A DNA stretch of 34,930 nt from contig SKZO01000055.1 of assembly GCA_007127335.1 (NCBI GenBank), forward strand, positions 1 to 34,930, given 5' to 3'. This document shows positions 11,252 through 20,916 of the stretch, piece after piece. Each line of letters starts with the position of its first letter. Positions within the stretch are counted from its first letter, which is position 1. Position numbers and translations under genes: made by a program. Source of the DNA: Spirochaetales bacterium (GTDB taxonomy: Bacteria > Spirochaetota > Spirochaetia > DSM-27196 > SLST01). Below the pieces are notes generated by a model that saw only the letters and a program-made list of their open reading frames with translations, was not told where the DNA came from and did not search any database.

Positions 11252-11626
11252 ATGTTCGGTTTCGGATTCTTTCCGTTCTTTTTCCTCATGCCACTCATCC
11301 TTGTCGTGGTGATAGCCCGCGCTGCCTCCGGTGCCTTCCGCAGCTGGCGCAGGTACGAGCTCGAGGAGGAGCATGACACACGGCTCCACCAGAGGGAGGC
11401 GCAGCGTGCACCTCACACCGACGAGGCTGCGATCTTCAAACTTGCGTACCGGCTCAAGGGACGGCTGACGGTCTCGGATATCGTGGTGGAGACCGGGCTC
11501 GGCGTGGACGAATCGGAGCGCCTGGTCGAGTCGCTCGTCGATAACGTCCGGGTTCGCATGGAGATCGACGACCGAGGTATCGTCACGTACGAGTTCCCGG
11601 AGATCATCCGTCGGTTCGAGGCGTAG
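11252..11626 (+). CDS. Small protein with N-terminal TM segment and possible winged-helix-like C-terminal domain
   Basis: MFGFGFFPFFFLMPLILVVVIARAASGAF... then FKLAYRLKGRLTVSDIVVETGLGVDESERLVESLVDN; SD GGAAGGG. Domain call is by eye. Confidence 0.68.
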   Translation: MFGFGFFPFFFLMPLILVVVIARAASGAFRSWRRYELEEEHDTRLHQREAQRAPHTDEAAIFKLAYRLKGRLTVSDIVVETGLGVDESERLVESLVDNVRVRMEIDDRGIVTYEFPEIIRRFEA

Positions 11627-14600
11627 TCTCGGCGGACTCTTCGTCGGTGACTCCGGAGGCCAGGAATCGCTCGTAGTATGACCGTACTCGGGAACGCCGA
11701 CGCGCAATGTCCGCCGTAAACGCCTGCGCGTCGGACGTCGGCCCGTCGATCCGCCGCGCGAGCGCGGCCTGGTCGCCGGCGCTCCGGGGCAGCGCGTGAA
11801 CCTGGCGATCCTCGTATATCTGGAGGAAGTGCTCGACGCGACGCATACGTTCGTAGTCGTCCTGGAGCTCCCGAGCTGTGGGCTCCTGCAGCGCCCCCAC
11901 CGCGAGCAGCCGATCGAGCGCTTCCAGAGTGTTCCCGGTAAGCACATCCGGGTGATGCTTCGAGTGAATCAACTGCAATCCCTGGACAAGGAACTCGATG
12001 TCCCGGATGCCACCTTCCCCGGTCTTGATGTCGCCTTCCGTGGTCTGCCGGACCGCCTGCGAGCGGAGAATCCTGATCCCGGCCCTGATCTCCTCGGCGG
12101 CGAGCCGACCGACCGCGACCGGCTTGATCGCCTCGAGGAACCGCGTTCCGAGCGCGATGTCGCCGGCGACCGGAGAGAGCTTCAGAAGCGCCTGATGCTC
12201 CCATGCCGATGCATCGTTCTCGTAGTAGCGCACCGCCGCGGAGAAGGGCTGTACGAGCGGACCGGAGCTGCCGTACGGCCTGAGCCGGAAATCCACCCGG
12301 TACGCGTACCCCTCCGCCGTGTGCTGGGACAGATCGGCCCTCAAGCGGCTGAGCACGTCGGCAAACAGCCGCGAATCCCGCTCGCGACGATCGGGTTCGC
12401 CGTCCGCAAAGATTCCGAGCAGGTCGATATCTGAGCTGTAGTTGAGCTCGTTCCCGCCCAACTTGCCGAAGGCCAGGACGACGAAGCGCCGACGATCGCT
12501 CTCTACGGCCTCCATTTCGGTCCAGATGGCCTCGAGATCGGTAACGAGCAGCGCACGGGCGATCGCGGAGAGCTCCTGCGTGATCGTCCGCAGTGACGCT
12601 CGCAGACAGATGTCTCGGGTACCGATGCGCAGCAGCTCCTGCTTTCGCCGTCTCCTGATCATCGCCTTGCGCTGGGTGGCGTTCGCGTAGTCGATGCCTT
12701 CAGCCCGGATGTCCTCGATCATCTGCCGGTCCGTGCGCACCCGCGAGACGATGTCGGGGTCGAGGGCCCAGTCGAGGAAAGCCGGGTGCTGGATCAGCGT
12801 ATCCGAGAGGAAGCTGCTCGTGGCAAAGACCTGCAGCATCAGATCGAGCATGTGCGGTTGGCTCAGAAGACGGCGGTAGTGCTCGGCGCGGTCCGGGAGT
12901 CGACAGGCGTAGCGCTCCCAGTTGTTGAGCGCGGTGTCCGGATCAATGTTCGCCCGCAGGGCCTGCCAGGCGAGGATGATCAGCTCACTGAACACCTCGC
13001 GCTCCGAGCCCTGTCCCGCGAGCGCGATGATGTCACGAAGGGCGCGCGTGTGATTCCGCAAACCGGCACCCTCGAGGATCTGCGCGGTGAGATTCTCGGG
13101 CAGTCCTGTCGCGAGCACGAGATCCGCGGCATTGCCCGGGCGTGGTCCCGGGATCGATTCACGCCCCAGGTGCTGCTCGAGAAAGGCGCGCACCGCGGCG
13201 GTGCGCGCCTCGAACTCGACATGCAGTTGCCTCGCGGCGGAGAGATTCTCACGATCGCTGTACCCCGCGCGCCGTGCCAGATGGGCGTATTCAAGACTGT
13301 CCACCTCGGGCAGAAAGAGATCCTGGGCGTTCCCACGCAGCATGCGCAGACCGTTGATCAGGTTGCGGAGGAACCGGTACGAACGAACGAGCCGATGCGT
13401 CTCGTCGGGTTCCATGACACCGGAACGCTCAAGCTCATCGAGACCTGCGTGCAGACTCGGCGTACGCAGCCGCGGATTGGTGCGACCATGCTGGACGAGA
13501 AGGATCTGGAGCCCATACTCAAGGTCCACCAGCGCTCCCGGACTGAACTTCGCATTCAGTCTTCCCGGCTGCGACTTCTCGCGGAACTGGCGCTCCCGCA
13601 GAGAGCGAAGCTCCGCGAGGTCGATACTGTCGGTCCGGTAGAGCAAGTCATCGCGCAGCTCCTCGACCTGGAGGCCGAAGCTCTCGGATCCACCGATTCT
13701 ACGCAGACGGGTCAGCGCGAGCTTCTCGTAGCTGTGCGCATCACCATCGCGTCCGTAGTACCGGTTGAACGACTCCAGACTCACGGCGTGCGGTCCGGCC
13801 TGACCGTACGGCCGCAGTCGCAGATCCACGCGGAAGATCCCTTCGCGTCTCGACCGTATGGAACCGGTGGCGTCCATCACCAGTCGCTCGAAGAACTCGG
13901 CGTTCGGCACCTCGGACGGTCCGTCGGTCGTTCCGCTGTCGCGGTAGACGAACAGCAGCTCAATATCGCTCGCGTATCCGAGCGCGCGGCCACCGAGCTT
14001 TCCAAGCCCGAAGACCGCCCATTGCGTCTCGAGACCGGCGACCGCGCGCGGCCGTCCATACCGCTCGGTCAGCGCGCCCCAGGAGAGCTCGATCGCCTGT
14101 CGCACGACGATCTCGGCGAGGTTCGTGAGACGATCACTGAGGAAGAAGAAATCGTGGTCCGGATGCAGTATGTGGTCGAGGTCGATGAGAAAAGCCTCGC
14201 GGTCCTTGAACTCGTTGAGAAGCTCTCGTTGCTCATCGAGCGTGCGGGCATGCCGCATGGCCTCCTGCAGGCGCAACTCGATGTCCCGCGGGTTGGAACT
14301 GAGCTCTCGCGGTTCGGTCAGCATGGGGATGATGTTTTCATACTGGAGCCGTATGAAGTCTTCCCAAAGGAAATCACTCGCTCCGAGCAGGTGCGCGAGC
14401 TCGCGCAACACGAGCGGCTCGCTGAGGAGCGACCCTATGCCGGAGTCCTGCGTCTCACGGACCAGATCCCGACTCATGGACTCGAAGCGAACGAGCGCGG
14501 CGTATGGATCGGGAGCCCGATCGAGGAAATAGGTGAACTGTTTCGTGAGCAGAACGGAAAACCTGATGCGGTCGAGCGCGGCCGCATCCGTGATTCGTTC

Positions 14601-15419
14601 ACCGCTCGCATCAAGGAGCTCGAAGACATCACTGATCACCTGTCGATGCGTCTCGATCGTCACCGTCTCAATCGAGATACCCTGAAGGCTGAGCCCGGCA
14701 GACAGTGCGTACAGGAAGAACGGCGTGTCCTCTCCCGTGATGATCATCCTCGTGGCGGACGGGTGGGAGAGGTCGAACCGGATCTCGAGAGGGTAGAGTG
14801 TTTGCGCGACGGACGCTTCGTCCTTGCGCAGCCGGTCGGCCACAGCCTCGTTCACCAGCCGCCGAGCTTCGTTTCGATCGCCCCCCGGAAGGATGAGCGG
14901 AATGACACGGTCGAGCAGACCGGTGAGCTCGGCGAAGAAACGCTCCGGGGCGAACCCGGGCCGCAGCTCGCCTGCAAACCGGTCGACAATACGGCGCGTG
15001 GGGATCGGTGCGTGCGCGACTCTCGTCGCGCCTCCGCGCGCCCGTGAACGAACCGGCGAAGACGGTTCGCGCTCGAGGGTGAAGACGTCGCCGGACTGAA
15101 TGCTGAAACCGGCTGCGGCGAGGGAACCGGCGAGGAGGCTCAACATGCCAGGATCGTCGATCGAGACGATCGTGAGCTCGACTCGCCCCTCTGCCATCCT
15201 GCGGGCGTCGAGGATGTAGGGTTCCTCCCGGGAGATCGAACAGAGCATCTCCACGTGCCGTGCGATGGTTGGCGGATCGTAGGAGAGGACGTACCGGTCC
15301 GGCAGCCGTGCTATCGCGTCAGACGGCGAGAACCCGTTCGCCGCATGCTGCTGAATGTATGCGAGCTGCGGAGCCAGAGCGGAGAGCTCGTCAAGAGTTG
15401 GGCGTCGCGGCGCGCTCAT
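11604..15419 (-). CDS. glnE: Glutamine synthetase adenylyltransferase/deadenylylase, 1271 aa with long N-terminal extension
   Basis: Two GlnE nucleotidyltransferase motifs (FGLGKLGGRALGYASDIELLFVY and FGKLGGNELNYSSDIDLLGIF), and GGIRDIEFLVQGLQLIH. Located just downstream of glnK. Confidence 0.92.
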   Translation of the reverse strand: MSAPRRPTLDELSALAPQLAYIQQHAANGFSPSDAIARLPDRYVLSYDPPTIARHVEMLCSISREEPYILDARRMAEGRVELTIVSIDDPGMLSLLAGSLAAAGFSIQSGDVFTLEREPSSPVRSRARGGATRVAHAPIPTRRIVDRFAGELRPGFAPERFFAELTGLLDRVIPLILPGGDRNEARRLVNEAVADRLRKDEASVAQTLYPLEIRFDLSHPSATRMIITGEDTPFFLYALSAGLSLQGISIETVTIETHRQVISDVFELLDASGERITDAAALDRIRFSVLLTKQFTYFLDRAPDPYAALVRFESMSRDLVRETQDSGIGSLLSEPLVLRELAHLLGASDFLWEDFIRLQYENIIPMLTEPRELSSNPRDIELRLQEAMRHARTLDEQRELLNEFKDREAFLIDLDHILHPDHDFFFLSDRLTNLAEIVVRQAIELSWGALTERYGRPRAVAGLETQWAVFGLGKLGGRALGYASDIELLFVYRDSGTTDGPSEVPNAEFFERLVMDATGSIRSRREGIFRVDLRLRPYGQAGPHAVSLESFNRYYGRDGDAHSYEKLALTRLRRIGGSESFGLQVEELRDDLLYRTDSIDLAELRSLRERQFREKSQPGRLNAKFSPGALVDLEYGLQILLVQHGRTNPRLRTPSLHAGLDELERSGVMEPDETHRLVRSYRFLRNLINGLRMLRGNAQDLFLPEVDSLEYAHLARRAGYSDRENLSAARQLHVEFEARTAAVRAFLEQHLGRESIPGPRPGNAADLVLATGLPENLTAQILEGAGLRNHTRALRDIIALAGQGSEREVFSELIILAWQALRANIDPDTALNNWERYACRLPDRAEHYRRLLSQPHMLDLMLQVFATSSFLSDTLIQHPAFLDWALDPDIVSRVRTDRQMIEDIRAEGIDYANATQRKAMIRRRRKQELLRIGTRDICLRASLRTITQELSAIARALLVTDLEAIWTEMEAVESDRRRFVVLAFGKLGGNELNYSSDIDLLGIFADGEPDRRERDSRLFADVLSRLRADLSQHTAEGYAYRVDFRLRPYGSSGPLVQPFSAAVRYYENDASAWEHQALLKLSPVAGDIALGTRFLEAIKPVAVGRLAAEEIRAGIRILRSQAVRQTTEGDIKTGEGGIRDIEFLVQGLQLIHSKHHPDVLTGNTLEALDRLLAVGALQEPTARELQDDYERMRRVEHFLQIYEDRQVHALPRSAGDQAALARRIDGPTSDAQAFTADIARRRSRVRSYYERFLASGVTDEESAETTPRTDG

Positions 15420-15456: not shown

Positions 15457-15480
15457 CGGGGCCGCCATTCGGCGGCCCCG
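15457..15480 (-). other. Perfect 10-bp intergenic hairpin between glnK and glnE
   Basis: CGGGGCCGCC-ATTC-GGCGGCCCCG on the + strand, perfectly self-complementary; no U-tract follows on the transcribed strand. Confidence 0.85.
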
Positions 15481-15494
15481 AGACAGGTCGGGAA

Positions 15495-15836
15495 TCAGCC
15501 TACGGCCTCTTTCCCGCGTTCGCCGCTTCGAATGCGTATAACATCCTCGAGCGGGGTGATGAAGATTTTCCCATCGCCTATCTCACCCGTGCGCGCGCCA
15601 CGGACGATGGCATCAACGGTAGGCTCGACGAACTCGTCGTTGACCGCGATCTCGATGCGTATCTTCTTCAGCAGGTTCACCTCAATGTCAACGCCCCGGT
15701 AGCTCTCGTGGTACCCCTTCTGCTGTCCACATCCAAGGGAGTTGGTCACGGAAAGCCGGTATATCTCACTCTTGTACAACTCTTCCTTCACATCGTTCAG
15801 CTTGTGCGGCTGAATGTAGGCTACGATCAGTTTCAT
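15495..15836 (-). CDS. glnK: Nitrogen regulatory PII protein
   Basis: [67 protein letters not shown]...[29 protein letters not shown]. Confidence 0.95.
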
Positions 15837-15846
15837 CTCTGCCTCC

Positions 15847-17196
15847 TTACACGTTGCTGAAGATCTGGAAGCCACTGTAGGCCTCAGACCCATGCTCGCT
15901 GAGATCAAGCCCAAGGAGCTCGTCCTTCGGCTCTACCCGCAAGACCTTCGCCGCCTTCAGAATACCAAAGAGCACGAGCGCGGTTACCACGACCCAGGCA
16001 AAGACAGCGACGACGCCGAGCAGCTGCACTCCTATCTGCCCGCCGCGGGCGAGTCCCGAGTCGATTTTGGCGAGATCACCGAACAATCCCACGGCAAGCG
16101 TTCCCCATGCGCCGCACACCCCGTGAACGCTGATCGCACCAACCGGGTCGTCGATATGGAGCACCTTGTCGAAGAACTCGACGGAGGCCACAACGAGCAC
16201 TCCGGCGATCGCCCCGACGATCACGGCGCCGAACGGCCCTATAACCCAGGTGCCGGCGGTGATGCCAACGAGTCCGGCGAGAGCTCCGTTCATCGAGAAG
16301 GTCGGGTCGGGCTTGCCGAACCAGACCCAGGAGGTCAGCATTGCGAGAATGGCACCGGAGCCGGCCGCGAGCGTTGTCGTCGTTGCGACCCAGGCTATAT
16401 CGGGATCGCTCCCGCTGAGTGTCGACCCGGCGTTGAAGCCGTACCAGCCGAACCAGAGGATGAAGACGCCGAGTGCCGCGATCGGCAGGTTGTGTCCCGG
16501 AATCGCCTTCACGGTCACCTGTCCGTTCAGCTTGATGTACTTCCCGCGTCGGGCCCCCAGCACCATGGCACCCACCATCGCCGACCATGCGCCGACTGAG
16601 TGCACGACAGTCGATCCGGCGAAGTCATGGAACCCAAGCCCGTCGAGCCATCCGCCGCCCCAGATCCAGTGTCCGGATATTGGATAGATCACGGCCGAGA
16701 TCACGACACTGTACAGGAGGTACCCCGTGAATTTGGTCCTCTCGGCCATCGCGCCGGAGACGATCGTCGCGGCGGTCGCGGCAAAGACCACCTGGAAGAA
16801 CCAGTCCCGGTAGATCTCGGACATCGTCCCAACGCCGTACGCTTCCAGGGCGGCCTGGTCGTAGGCGAGACCGAAACCGTTGAGACCTATGAAACCACCG
16901 GCCCCCGGCGCGCCGTACATGAAGGCCCACCCGACTGCCCAGTAGGCCAGAGCGCCTACGGAGAAGTCCATCAGGTTCTTCATGATGATGTTCCCGGCGT
17001 TCTTCGCCCGGGTCAGACCCGTCTCCACCATCGCAAACCCGGCCTGCATCAGAAAGACCAGAGACGCCGCGAATACGAGCCAGATCATATCCAGGGCGAG
17101 GGAGACATCCTCCATCGTCAACTCCTGCGCGACCATCCTGCCTCCGCCGAGTACGACGGCCAACACGATGAACAAGAACAATCGCTTACGCATCAC
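15847..17196 (-). CDS. amtB: Ammonium transporter
   Basis: Signal peptide plus 11-TM Amt family: [29 protein letters not shown]..., [35 protein letters not shown]. Confidence 0.95.
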
Positions 17197-17395: not shown

Positions 17396-18961
17396 CTACC
17401 TGTGGGTGCGGAGTTGGCGCGGGTCTATGTCGTGTTTCTTGACGCGCAGACCCATAACCCGCTCGGAGACGCCGAGCAGTCGAGCAGCCTTCGCCATATT
17501 GCCGCGAGTCGACTTCAGCGAATCGAGGATCAGCTCGCGTTCGAGGTTGTCGATGCTCTCGTCGAGCGTCCCGTGGAACTCGGTGTTCGTCGACTCGGCC
17601 GACTGCAGACTCGGTGGCAGGTGGTGGCTGTGGATTACCTCGTCGACGCTCAGGAGCACGGCTCGCTCGACGCAGTTCTCGAGCTCCCGCACGTTGCCCG
17701 GCCAGTGGTAGCTCATCAGCAGGTCGATCGCCGGCGTGCTGATCCGCCGGACGGCCACGTGGTTCTGGGATGCGTACTTCTCGATGAAGTGATCGGAGAG
17801 AAGCAGGATATCGCTCTTCCGGTCGCGAAGGGGGGGGATGTGCACCGGAAATACGTTCAGCCGATAGTAGAGGTCCTCACGAAAGCGGCCCTGGGCCATG
17901 AGCTCCTCGAGGTTCCTGTTGGTTGCGGTGATCACGCGTACGTTCACCCGAATCGTTTCGTTCCCACCCACTCGCTCGAACTCCCGTTCCTGCAGCACAC
18001 GCAGCAGCTTTATCTGCGTGGTGGGCGACAGATCGCCAATCTCGTCCAGAAAGATGGAGCCCCCGTGGGCCATCTCGAATCGGCCCTTGCGCGTGCTTAC
18101 GGCGCCGGTGAACGCCCCCTTCTCATGACCGAACAGCTCGCTTTCTATGACCGTCTCCGGCAGTGCCGCGCAGTTCACTTTCACGAACGGCTTGTCCGCC
18201 CGGTTGCTGTTGTAATGGATCGCGTGGGCCACCAGTTCCTTCCCGGTGCCACTCTCGCCGCGGATCAGCACCGTTGCGTCGCTCCGCGACACCTGTGCGA
18301 TCATGTCGAACACATCCTGCATCGCGCGTGAATTCCCGACGATGTTTGACGGACGAAAACGCTCCTTGAGCTCCTCCTGCAGCCGCGTGTTTTCTTCGAG
18401 AAGCGCCCGCTTCTCCTCCATGATCTTCTGGCGTATCTTGACTGCCTGTGCTACGAGCGACGCGAGAATGGACAGGAACCGGACATCGTCTTCGAGTTCG
18501 TCCTGGTCGGCCGCCGGACGGTCTATGGCCAGTGCTCCAATCGTTTCGTTGCCGAGCTTGATGGGCACACAGATAAAGGAAAGCTGCCTGCTCCCTTTCC
18601 TGTTGCGGGCCCCGGTGCGATTCAGGAAGGAAGGATCCTCGCTGACCAGAGGTATGATCTGCGGTATGCCGGTCTGTACTACACGACCGGTCACTCCTTC
18701 GCCCAGTCGATAGCGCCCGCGTTCCTGCTGCGATTGCGACAGCCCATGCGCCGCCTCGATGAAGATCTCTCCCGTATTGCGGTTCAGCAGCGTGATCGCC
18801 ACGCGCGCGTACTCGAGGCGGTCGGCGGTCGTTCGCAGCACGGGCTGGATGACCTGGTCGAGGTCAAGGCTCTGATCGAGAAGCTGGCTGATCTCGAACA
18901 GCAGCGACAGCTCCTCGTACTTGCCTCGAGCACCGGCGAGTCGCTCACGCGTATCTGCCAT
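17396..18961 (-). CDS. Sigma-54-dependent activator, NifA-like (GAF-AAA+-HTH)
   Basis: GAF region, GESGTGKE Walker [14 protein letters not shown] sigma-54 contact loop, C-terminal Fis-type HTH; start ATG 18961 with GGAGG. nifA proper not claimed. Confidence 0.9.
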
Positions 18962-19057
18962 ATTACCTCCGGGGTTCCACGATGCTACAAAAATGTCGGA
19001 AAAGACACAAGCCACCCTCGCTTCGGTACCTTTCATGGTCTGAGGGGCGGCGAAGGG

Positions 19058-20821
19058 CTACAGGACTCCTTCGTAAAGTATCTTCTGCTCGCCGTCGAGC
19101 GTGGCGGTCATGCCGTCCTCCGCATGGCGAAGCGCGTCGGGAACCTCGCTGATCAACACGAGCGCGGCGTTCTCGGCCTGCAGGTCGGCATGCGGAACCT
19201 CGGATCGTTCTTCAGACACGACCGCAGCAATTCCCGGGATCAGGTCCAGGTACTGTCTGGAGATCAGCCGCGTGACCAGAATCTCGGTTGAGTCGAGCTT
19301 CAGCCGCCGACGCGCGTCTTCGGCGGTCTCGGCCTTGACCACCCGTCCGGTGACCCTTCCGCCGAAACCATCGTGTCCCCGATTCAGTACGTTCCCGAGA
19401 ATGTGCATCTTGATGGTGTTCAGCGGCAGGGCCGAGGAGAGAGGCATGCCCGCAATGGTGAGAACACGATCCGACTCCTCAAGATATCCGCGATCGACCG
19501 CGTGACGGATGGCGTTCTGAACCATTGACTCGGAGTCGGAGACCTCGTCCGAGACGATCGGAACCACGCCCCAGGAGAGCAGCAACTGCCGCTGAACGGA
19601 TTCGGTCGTCGTCACCGCGATCACCGTCTGCTTCGGACGATGGCGCGAGAGAATACGGGGCGTGTTCCCGCGAAGCGTCGGGGCGACGATGGCCGCCACC
19701 GCCGCATCTGATGCGACAAGGAACGCCGCACGCGCCATCGCCTCGCCGATGTCATTCGGTTCGCCGGATACCTCGGACGCCCCGGTCCGGCGGCCGTGGT
19801 ACTCCGCGCTCGCCTCTACCGAACGCGCGATCCGATCGAGCGTGGCGCAGGCGCGGACCGGGTACTGCCCGGTCGCGGTCTCGCCGCTCAGCATGACCGC
19901 GTCTGTACCGTCGAATATCGCGTTGGCAACATCCGTGAGTTCGGCACGGGTCGGACGAGGATTCCGTATCATCGAGTCGAGCATCTGCGTTGCGGTTATC
20001 ACTGGTTTGTTGAGCCTGTTCGCCGTCGCGATGATGCGCTTCTGGGCGAGCGGAATCTCCTCGATCGCGAGTTGGACGCCCAGATCGCCGCGGGCAACCA
20101 TGATCCCGTCGGCTGCTCGCGCGATCTCCGCGATGTTCTCGAGCCCCTGTTCGTCTTCGATCTTCGCAACGACATGGATCGAGCTGTCGTGGTCGCGCAG
20201 GAACTGCTTGATCGCGTCCACATCCTTGGGCGTACGGATGAAGCTCGCCGCGACGAAGTCGGCGCCCATCTCCACACCGAAAGCGATGTCACGCTGATCC
20301 TGCTCGGTCATGGCCGGCAGCGACACACGAATCCCCGGGATGTTCACGTTCTTCCTGTCGCCAAGCATGCCGCCGCTTCGCACCACGCATTGCACGTCGG
20401 TACCTGAAACGCGCTCCACCTCCAGATCGATCAACCCGTCGGCGATGTAGATGTGACCGCCGGGCCCTATCTCCTCGGGCAGCATGGTATAGGTGATACT
20501 CACGCGTTCCCGGGTCCCGGGTACGTCCTCGGTGGTGATGGTGATGTGATCGCCTGACTTGAGCTCTGCCTCGCGTCCGTCCCGCATCTTCCCGGTACGG
20601 ATTTCCGGTCCTTTGGTATCAAGCATGACGGCAACGGGGTGCCCTTCGGACCGACTGACCTCGCGAAGCCTCTCGATACGCCGGCGATGCTCTTCGTGGT
20701 TCCCGTGGGAGAAGTTCAGTCGCGCAACGTTCATCCCGGCACGAAGCAGATCCCGAACCGCCTCATCCGTATCGACTGCCGGACCCAGTGTGCAGACAAT
20801 CTTTGTCCGTCGGAAGTTCAT
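19058..20821 (-). CDS. pyk: Pyruvate kinase with C-terminal PEP-utiliser-like extension
   Basis: MNFRRTKIVCTLGPAVDTDEAVRDLLRAGMNVARLNFSHG..., MVARGDLGVQLAIEEIPLAQK, C-terminal extension ending ...DGMTATLDGEQKILYEGVL. Confidence 0.95.
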   Translation of the reverse strand: MNFRRTKIVCTLGPAVDTDEAVRDLLRAGMNVARLNFSHGNHEEHRRRIERLREVSRSEGHPVAVMLDTKGPEIRTGKMRDGREAELKSGDHITITTEDVPGTRERVSITYTMLPEEIGPGGHIYIADGLIDLEVERVSGTDVQCVVRSGGMLGDRKNVNIPGIRVSLPAMTEQDQRDIAFGVEMGADFVAASFIRTPKDVDAIKQFLRDHDSSIHVVAKIEDEQGLENIAEIARAADGIMVARGDLGVQLAIEEIPLAQKRIIATANRLNKPVITATQMLDSMIRNPRPTRAELTDVANAIFDGTDAVMLSGETATGQYPVRACATLDRIARSVEASAEYHGRRTGASEVSGEPNDIGEAMARAAFLVASDAAVAAIVAPTLRGNTPRILSRHRPKQTVIAVTTTESVQRQLLLSWGVVPIVSDEVSDSESMVQNAIRHAVDRGYLEESDRVLTIAGMPLSSALPLNTIKMHILGNVLNRGHDGFGGRVTGRVVKAETAEDARRRLKLDSTEILVTRLISRQYLDLIPGIAAVVSEERSEVPHADLQAENAALVLISEVPDALRHAEDGMTATLDGEQKILYEGVL

Positions 20822-20916
20822 CATGCGCAGCCTCCCACATCACATTGTGGTCCAATGCCGGGAGTGGTGTCCAGCGGGGGCCGCGCTTCACGAACGGCAG
20901 GGAGAGGGCCCGGTGG

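Follow-up and report, generated by a model that had tools for sequence, protein, structure and literature searches.

A GlnE homolog with a GlnD-type ACT module and swapped catalytic halves in Spirochaetia

We analyzed a 34,930-nucleotide stretch of spirochaete DNA (the window) and identified a GlnE gene (11604..15419, minus strand; 1271-aa ORF from the ATG at 15419) whose product, ACT-GlnE, is predicted to consist of a GlnD-type ACT module followed by an adenylylating (AT)-type half and a deadenylylating (AR)-type half. The protein is probably a distinct bifunctional glutamine synthetase (GS) adenylyltransferase/deadenylylase in which the ACT module serves as a sensor of an amino acid, presumably glutamine, and biases the activity accordingly. 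We give about even chances to the fuller reading, by which this single protein would be both the glutamine sensor and the GS switch, the ACT-AT block having moved before the AR half and PII uridylylation being bypassed in Spirochaetia.

ACT-GlnE carries a conserved N-terminal extension

ACT-GlnE passed the NCBIfam model NF008292 (557.9 bits, cut-off 487) and matched PF03710 (310.5 bits) and PF08335 (128 bits) over cut-off, each in two stretches. At 1271 aa it is longer than E. coli GlnE (946 aa). The initial annotation had noted this unusual length and proposed an N-terminal extension of about 300 aa, which was borne out as real by purifying selection and cross-phylum conservation. When we compared the window with L038, a 90%-identical relative, dN/dS was 0.116 over residues 2-300, while the two catalytic halves gave 0.058 and 0.080. 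Extension homologues from several phyla aligned from about residue 6-35 onward. Since the extension is both under purifying selection and conserved across phyla, the annotated ATG start is supported, and a start 3' of the ACT region was refuted. Antisense to glnE we noted a 753-aa open frame (12786-15047, plus strand) for which high-GC codon use is the most likely cause.

The extension corresponds to the regulatory module of GlnD

The resemblance of the extension to the tandem ACT domains of the GlnD C-terminus, noticed initially by eye, was supported by collinear profile matches, predicted fold and Foldseek. Residues 35-116 matched the GlnD models NF003467 (E=3.5e-17) and TIGR01693 (E=2.5e-15), in the latter at model positions 624-705, which is the GlnD segment after the HD domain. 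Residues 229-273 matched PF01842 weakly (E=0.0012 with 300 aa scanned, below the curated cut-off). When 55 homologous extensions were scanned singly at E<=0.01, PF01842 was matched by 37 (best 1e-10) and PF13291 by 16; these ACT-domain matches exceed what chance would give. A profile of the extension, searched against every ORF of the loci collected up to then, matched only ACT-GlnE and GlnD. GlnD was always matched as two pieces in the same order as in ACT-GlnE, at 623-727 and 784-868 in the GlnD of locus L081 and at 651-746 (covered by profile positions 6-110) and 816-872 in E. coli GlnD. Because these two pieces are collinear, the whole GlnD regulatory module (helices-ACT1-ACT2) is present, the helical stretch before ACT1 included. 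That this helical segment belongs to the module goes beyond the initial annotation, as do the reversed catalytic halves and the missing GlnD and PII uridylylation site described below. ACT-GlnE differs from GlnD in lacking the HD domain and in having the module at the N-terminus, joined to GlnE. GlnD as a class has a nucleotidyltransferase, an HD domain and two ACT domains and scores over the TIGR01693 cut-off of 519.4 bits; ACT-GlnE scored 55.8 bits against this full-length model, with only the C-terminal module matching well, and is thus no GlnD.

Structure prediction had been suggested as a check, and AlphaFold2 of residues 1-345 (55 sequences) returned two beta-alpha-beta-beta-alpha units in the extension with a mean pLDDT of 89.2 and a pTM of 0.89. 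Residues 6-61 (15237..15404, minus strand), with the pattern RYxLSxDPxxIARHxxML, aligned collinearly with the part of GlnD that precedes ACT1 and were modelled as helices. ACT1 (residues 68-176; 14892..15218, minus strand) showed strands at 79-87, 105-114 and 143-152 and helices at 92-102 and 158-176, with T83, D88, G98, G110 and T114 invariant. It is interrupted by a variable, disordered loop of low pLDDT (residues 119-141; 14997..15065, minus strand), of which residues 121-140 had 35% aa identity to L038, as against about 90% on either side. ACT2 (residues 208-299; 14523..14798, minus strand), the domain matching PF01842, showed strands at 212-216, 223-230, 249-258 and 261-269 and helices at 235-245 and 279-299; its invariant residues were T232, F235, I255, T257 and D264. 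The best PDB matches of the model by Foldseek were all ACT proteins, namely L-GDH180 (the ACT-bearing part of the large glutamate dehydrogenase), SerB2, threonine deaminase, aspartate kinase and PGDH. Sequence searches of the extension against the PDB yielded only a chance peroxiredoxin match with single-sequence phmmer and only weak ACT matches with a profile, and neither was strong enough to be used.

Distribution and genomic context

As to how widespread the architecture is, a question raised at the outset, ACT-GlnE was found to recur in Spirochaetia, some Deltaproteobacteria and the PVC group. Among 197 Spirochaetota genomes, GlnE was present in 20; eleven of the ORFs were 1229-1315 aa long, and the shorter ones lay outside Spirochaetia. 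The complete shorter Spirochaetota GlnE examined had no ACT module and had the order AR-AT where both halves were recognisable. Nearly all GlnE ORFs in 118 Desulfobacterota genomes were shorter, mostly 900-1170 aa, with three of the ACT type at 1264-1290 aa; in this survey, GlnE without a long ORF was accompanied by GlnD in 40/42 genomes. The phylum of genome G104 (115 genomes) had GlnE in 11, and five ORFs were 1239-1356 aa long.

In the window, glnE is preceded on the same minus strand by glnK, encoding PII (15495..15836), then by amtB for an ammonium transporter (15847..17196) and, upstream of amtB, by a gene for a GAF/sigma-54-activator/Fis-HTH regulator of NifA-like layout (17396..19036). 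This regulator-amtB-glnK-glnE order was kept in close relatives; of 66 loci, about 25 had a same-strand GS gene upstream. The glnK-glnE gap contains a perfect 9-bp GC-rich hairpin (GGGGCCGCC-ATTC-GGCGGCCCC, 15458-15479) without a T run, which was not obvious in L038. A search for sigma-54 promoters gave sites no more numerous than chance. Farther along, at 19058-20824 (minus strand), we observed a pyruvate kinase bearing a PEP-utilising mobile domain (PF00391) at its C-terminus.

In the textbook account, GS adenylylation is governed by a bicyclic cascade: glutamine is sensed by GlnD and signalled to GlnE through PII-UMP, the uridylylated residue of PII being Tyr at position 51. We found no full-length GlnD in the genome of the window and no GlnD over cut-off in 80 Spirochaetia genomes searched. 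A single PII was found in the genome, the product of the glnK described above; its T-loop has Ile at position 51. Across genomes, Tyr51 was present in 30/34 PII of GlnD-positive genomes, in 1/42 PII of Spirochaetia and in 0/15 PII of other GlnD-negative genomes. Loss of Tyr51 tracks the absence of GlnD and not the presence of ACT-GlnE, since Spirochaetia without GlnE also lack it. The target appeared intact: the single GS of the genome has the adenylylation site YDLPPEE, and the adenylylation Tyr was kept in 28/28 linked GS genes. PII itself was not found at E<=1e-12 in six ACT-GlnE Spirochaetia (G013, G037, G055, G061, G083 and G098), the first of which is 99% complete. All such gene absences are soft because most of the genomes are metagenome assemblies. 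Among 35 further ACT-GlnE genomes, mostly of Deltaproteobacteria and the PVC group, 18 carried a full-length GlnD; the module is therefore not a simple GlnD replacement everywhere and in those genomes is an addition. This count also led us to reject the notion that a universal loss of GlnD accounts for the ACT module.

Proposed sensing by the ACT module

The ACT domains of GlnD are regarded as glutamine sensors (PMC3173338; PMC12702975), and by analogy the module of ACT-GlnE would bind an amino acid, most likely glutamine. Abundant ligand would bias the enzyme towards adenylylating, and so switching off, GS, and scarce ligand would bias it towards deadenylylation. With a sensor module on GlnE itself and an apparent lack of the GlnD/PII-UMP relay, ACT-GlnE may read cellular glutamine directly, and in Spirochaetia this direct sensing would replace the path from GlnD through PII-UMP to GlnE. 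Unmodified PII from the adjoining glnK may add a 2-oxoglutarate/energy input. If true, a sensor on GlnE without GlnD and a PII modification site would amount to a natural monocyclic cascade, and it makes it possible to test directly whether GlnE can be driven by its ACT domains alone and which half each signal reaches.

We examined the ligand loop of both ACT domains for its bearing on this proposal. The Gly of the beta1-alpha1 loop is near-invariant in ACT domains (PMC3173338). In ACT2 the canonical Gly was absent, the corresponding position 234 being F in 32, A in 23 and G in only 1 of 58 homologues, and in ACT1 the Gly was present in 26/58. For this reason the ligand, or indeed any ligand binding, is uncertain. 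Such a loop would suit an ACT module that has lost ligand binding and serves as a structural or dimerisation platform or as a docking site for unmodified PII, control then being exerted by PII alone or by glutamine at a catalytic half; that glnK directly precedes glnE, both in the window and in close relatives, also fits this explanation. At the loop-Gly position, however, the ACT1 of E. coli GlnD has Tyr in the alignment, so that the Gly is not a strict requirement. The loop residues D88, D231, T232 and F235 were kept in 57-58 of the 58 homologues, which suggests a maintained site, and several ACT-GlnE genomes show no PII that could dock. We consider this explanation unlikely, though it is the strongest of the alternatives to glutamine sensing by the module.

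Somewhat less likely still is that the ligand is some amino acid besides glutamine, or 2-oxoglutarate, in which case the enzyme would couple GS to another nitrogen signal. The loop sequences are unlike those of GlnD (DTPFFLY in ACT2), and GlnD and ACT-GlnE coexist in many genomes, where sensing glutamine twice would be redundant. Against this, the module is collinear with that of GlnD, and the profile search linked it to no other kind of protein.

The catalytic halves are in reversed order

Like classical GlnE (E. coli GS-ATase), ACT-GlnE is built of two homologous nucleotidyltransferase halves, each retaining its metal-site acids, and its target is a GS with the adenylylation Tyr. It differs in having the N-terminal ACT module and the order AT-AR instead of AR-AT, and in the Spirochaetia class also in its setting, with a PII without Tyr51 and no GlnD found. 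The first half (residues 330-775; 13095..14432, minus strand) is related to the classical C-terminal AT half and has GALVDLEY at 628. The second half (residues 785-1255; 11655..13067, minus strand) is related to the classical N-terminal AR half and has GGIRDIEF at 1136. All the metal-site acids were conserved in 58/58 homologues: in the first half D485 and E487 (13959..13967; DxE, not DxD) and the third acid D532 in RVDLRLRP (13824..13826), and in the second half D997 and D999 (12423..12431) and the third acid D1043 (12291..12293), all on the minus strand.

In classical E. coli GlnE the AR half is N-terminal and the AT half C-terminal (PMC12409994); ACT-GlnE showed the reverse of this arrangement. 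Trees, likelihood mapping and motifs agreed on ACT-ACT-AT-AR as against AR-AT in E. coli, so that the halves are swapped. By BLASTP the second half paired with the first (AR) half of E. coli GlnE (1e-40). In a tree of 96 half-domains the second half grouped with AR sequences and the first half with those of AT, and a mixture-model tree split AR plus second half from AT plus first half with a support of 100/99. On core columns, that is without the inter-domain linker, likelihood mapping favoured the swap in 99.7% of quartets with Desulfobacterota, 90.4% with all sequences and 75.7% with non-Desulfobacterota only, and core profiles of AR were preferred by 21/22 second halves and those of AT by 22/22 first halves. 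The motifs told the halves apart in the same manner: the form GGIR[DE]IE[FY] was found in 25/26 AR and 58/58 second halves and in 0/26 AT and 0/58 first halves, while GGxVDxE[FY] was found in 20/26 AT and 57/58 first halves and in no AR or second half. In the AU test with slower Desulfobacterota sequences, both the classical order (p=0.0009) and an independent duplication (p=0.0005) were rejected. Foldseek of residues 1-780 did not discriminate between AR and AT. A comparison with untrimmed AR and AT profiles was discarded as misleading, since the AT profile contains the inter-domain linker.

That the halves stand in the classical AR-AT order and the swap is a tree artefact is very improbable and nearly refuted: the AU test with fast-evolving taxa included did not reject that order (p=0.138), the AlphaFold first half was slightly closer to E. 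coli AR (1v4a, TM 0.78) than to AT (3k7d, 0.64) and untrimmed AT profiles gave both halves higher scores, but the slower taxa, the core-column quartets of the full and Desulfobacterota sets, the half-specific motifs and the AR-ACT-AT protein described below all stand against it.

Independence from PII modification alone would not be new, because it is known in mycobacteria, where GS adenylylation is not controlled by PII modification; mycobacterial GlnD is present and modifies GlnK (PMC3612183). The actinobacterial GlnE compared here, from Tsukamurella and Nonomuraea, have their halves in the classical order, unlike ACT-GlnE. What would be new is the fused sensor together with the swapped order. 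A literature search for ACT-bearing, permuted or spirochaete GlnE, with most subscription journals outside its coverage, found no description; the pairing of ACT with GlnE may already be listed in domain databases.

A third architecture

At locus L267 (1786-5472, plus strand), from the Verrucomicrobiota-phylum genome G296 (the phylum of a Lentisphaerae bin), we found a 1228-aa ORF with a third architecture, in which an AR-type half is followed by the ACT module and then by an AT-type half. L267 is a natural INTERMEDIATE. It has the ACT module directly before the AT-type half, as in the window protein, and differs in having the AR-type half first, as in classical GlnE. In the tree its second half was sister to the first half of the window protein (100/100), and this tree separated the AR side from the AT side with a support of 100/99. 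Since these two halves are sisters, the ACT-AT block is a unit, which in the window protein precedes the AR half. The direction of rearrangement between AR-ACT-AT and ACT-AT-AR is one that we infer. Together, L267 as an intermediate and the permuted order of the window protein show how GlnE domains were rearranged. GlnE of the L267 type also appears to be undescribed. Another locus at a contig edge, L257, has an ACT-AT block whose reading frame stops where the AT-type half ends, its AR half being either missing or past the contig end; it looks like the L267-type order cut by the contig end. We also observed GlnE-like frames of about 750 aa at L249, L250 and L251, all from one Spirochaetota family, in which the AR-type half was normal and the second half very divergent.
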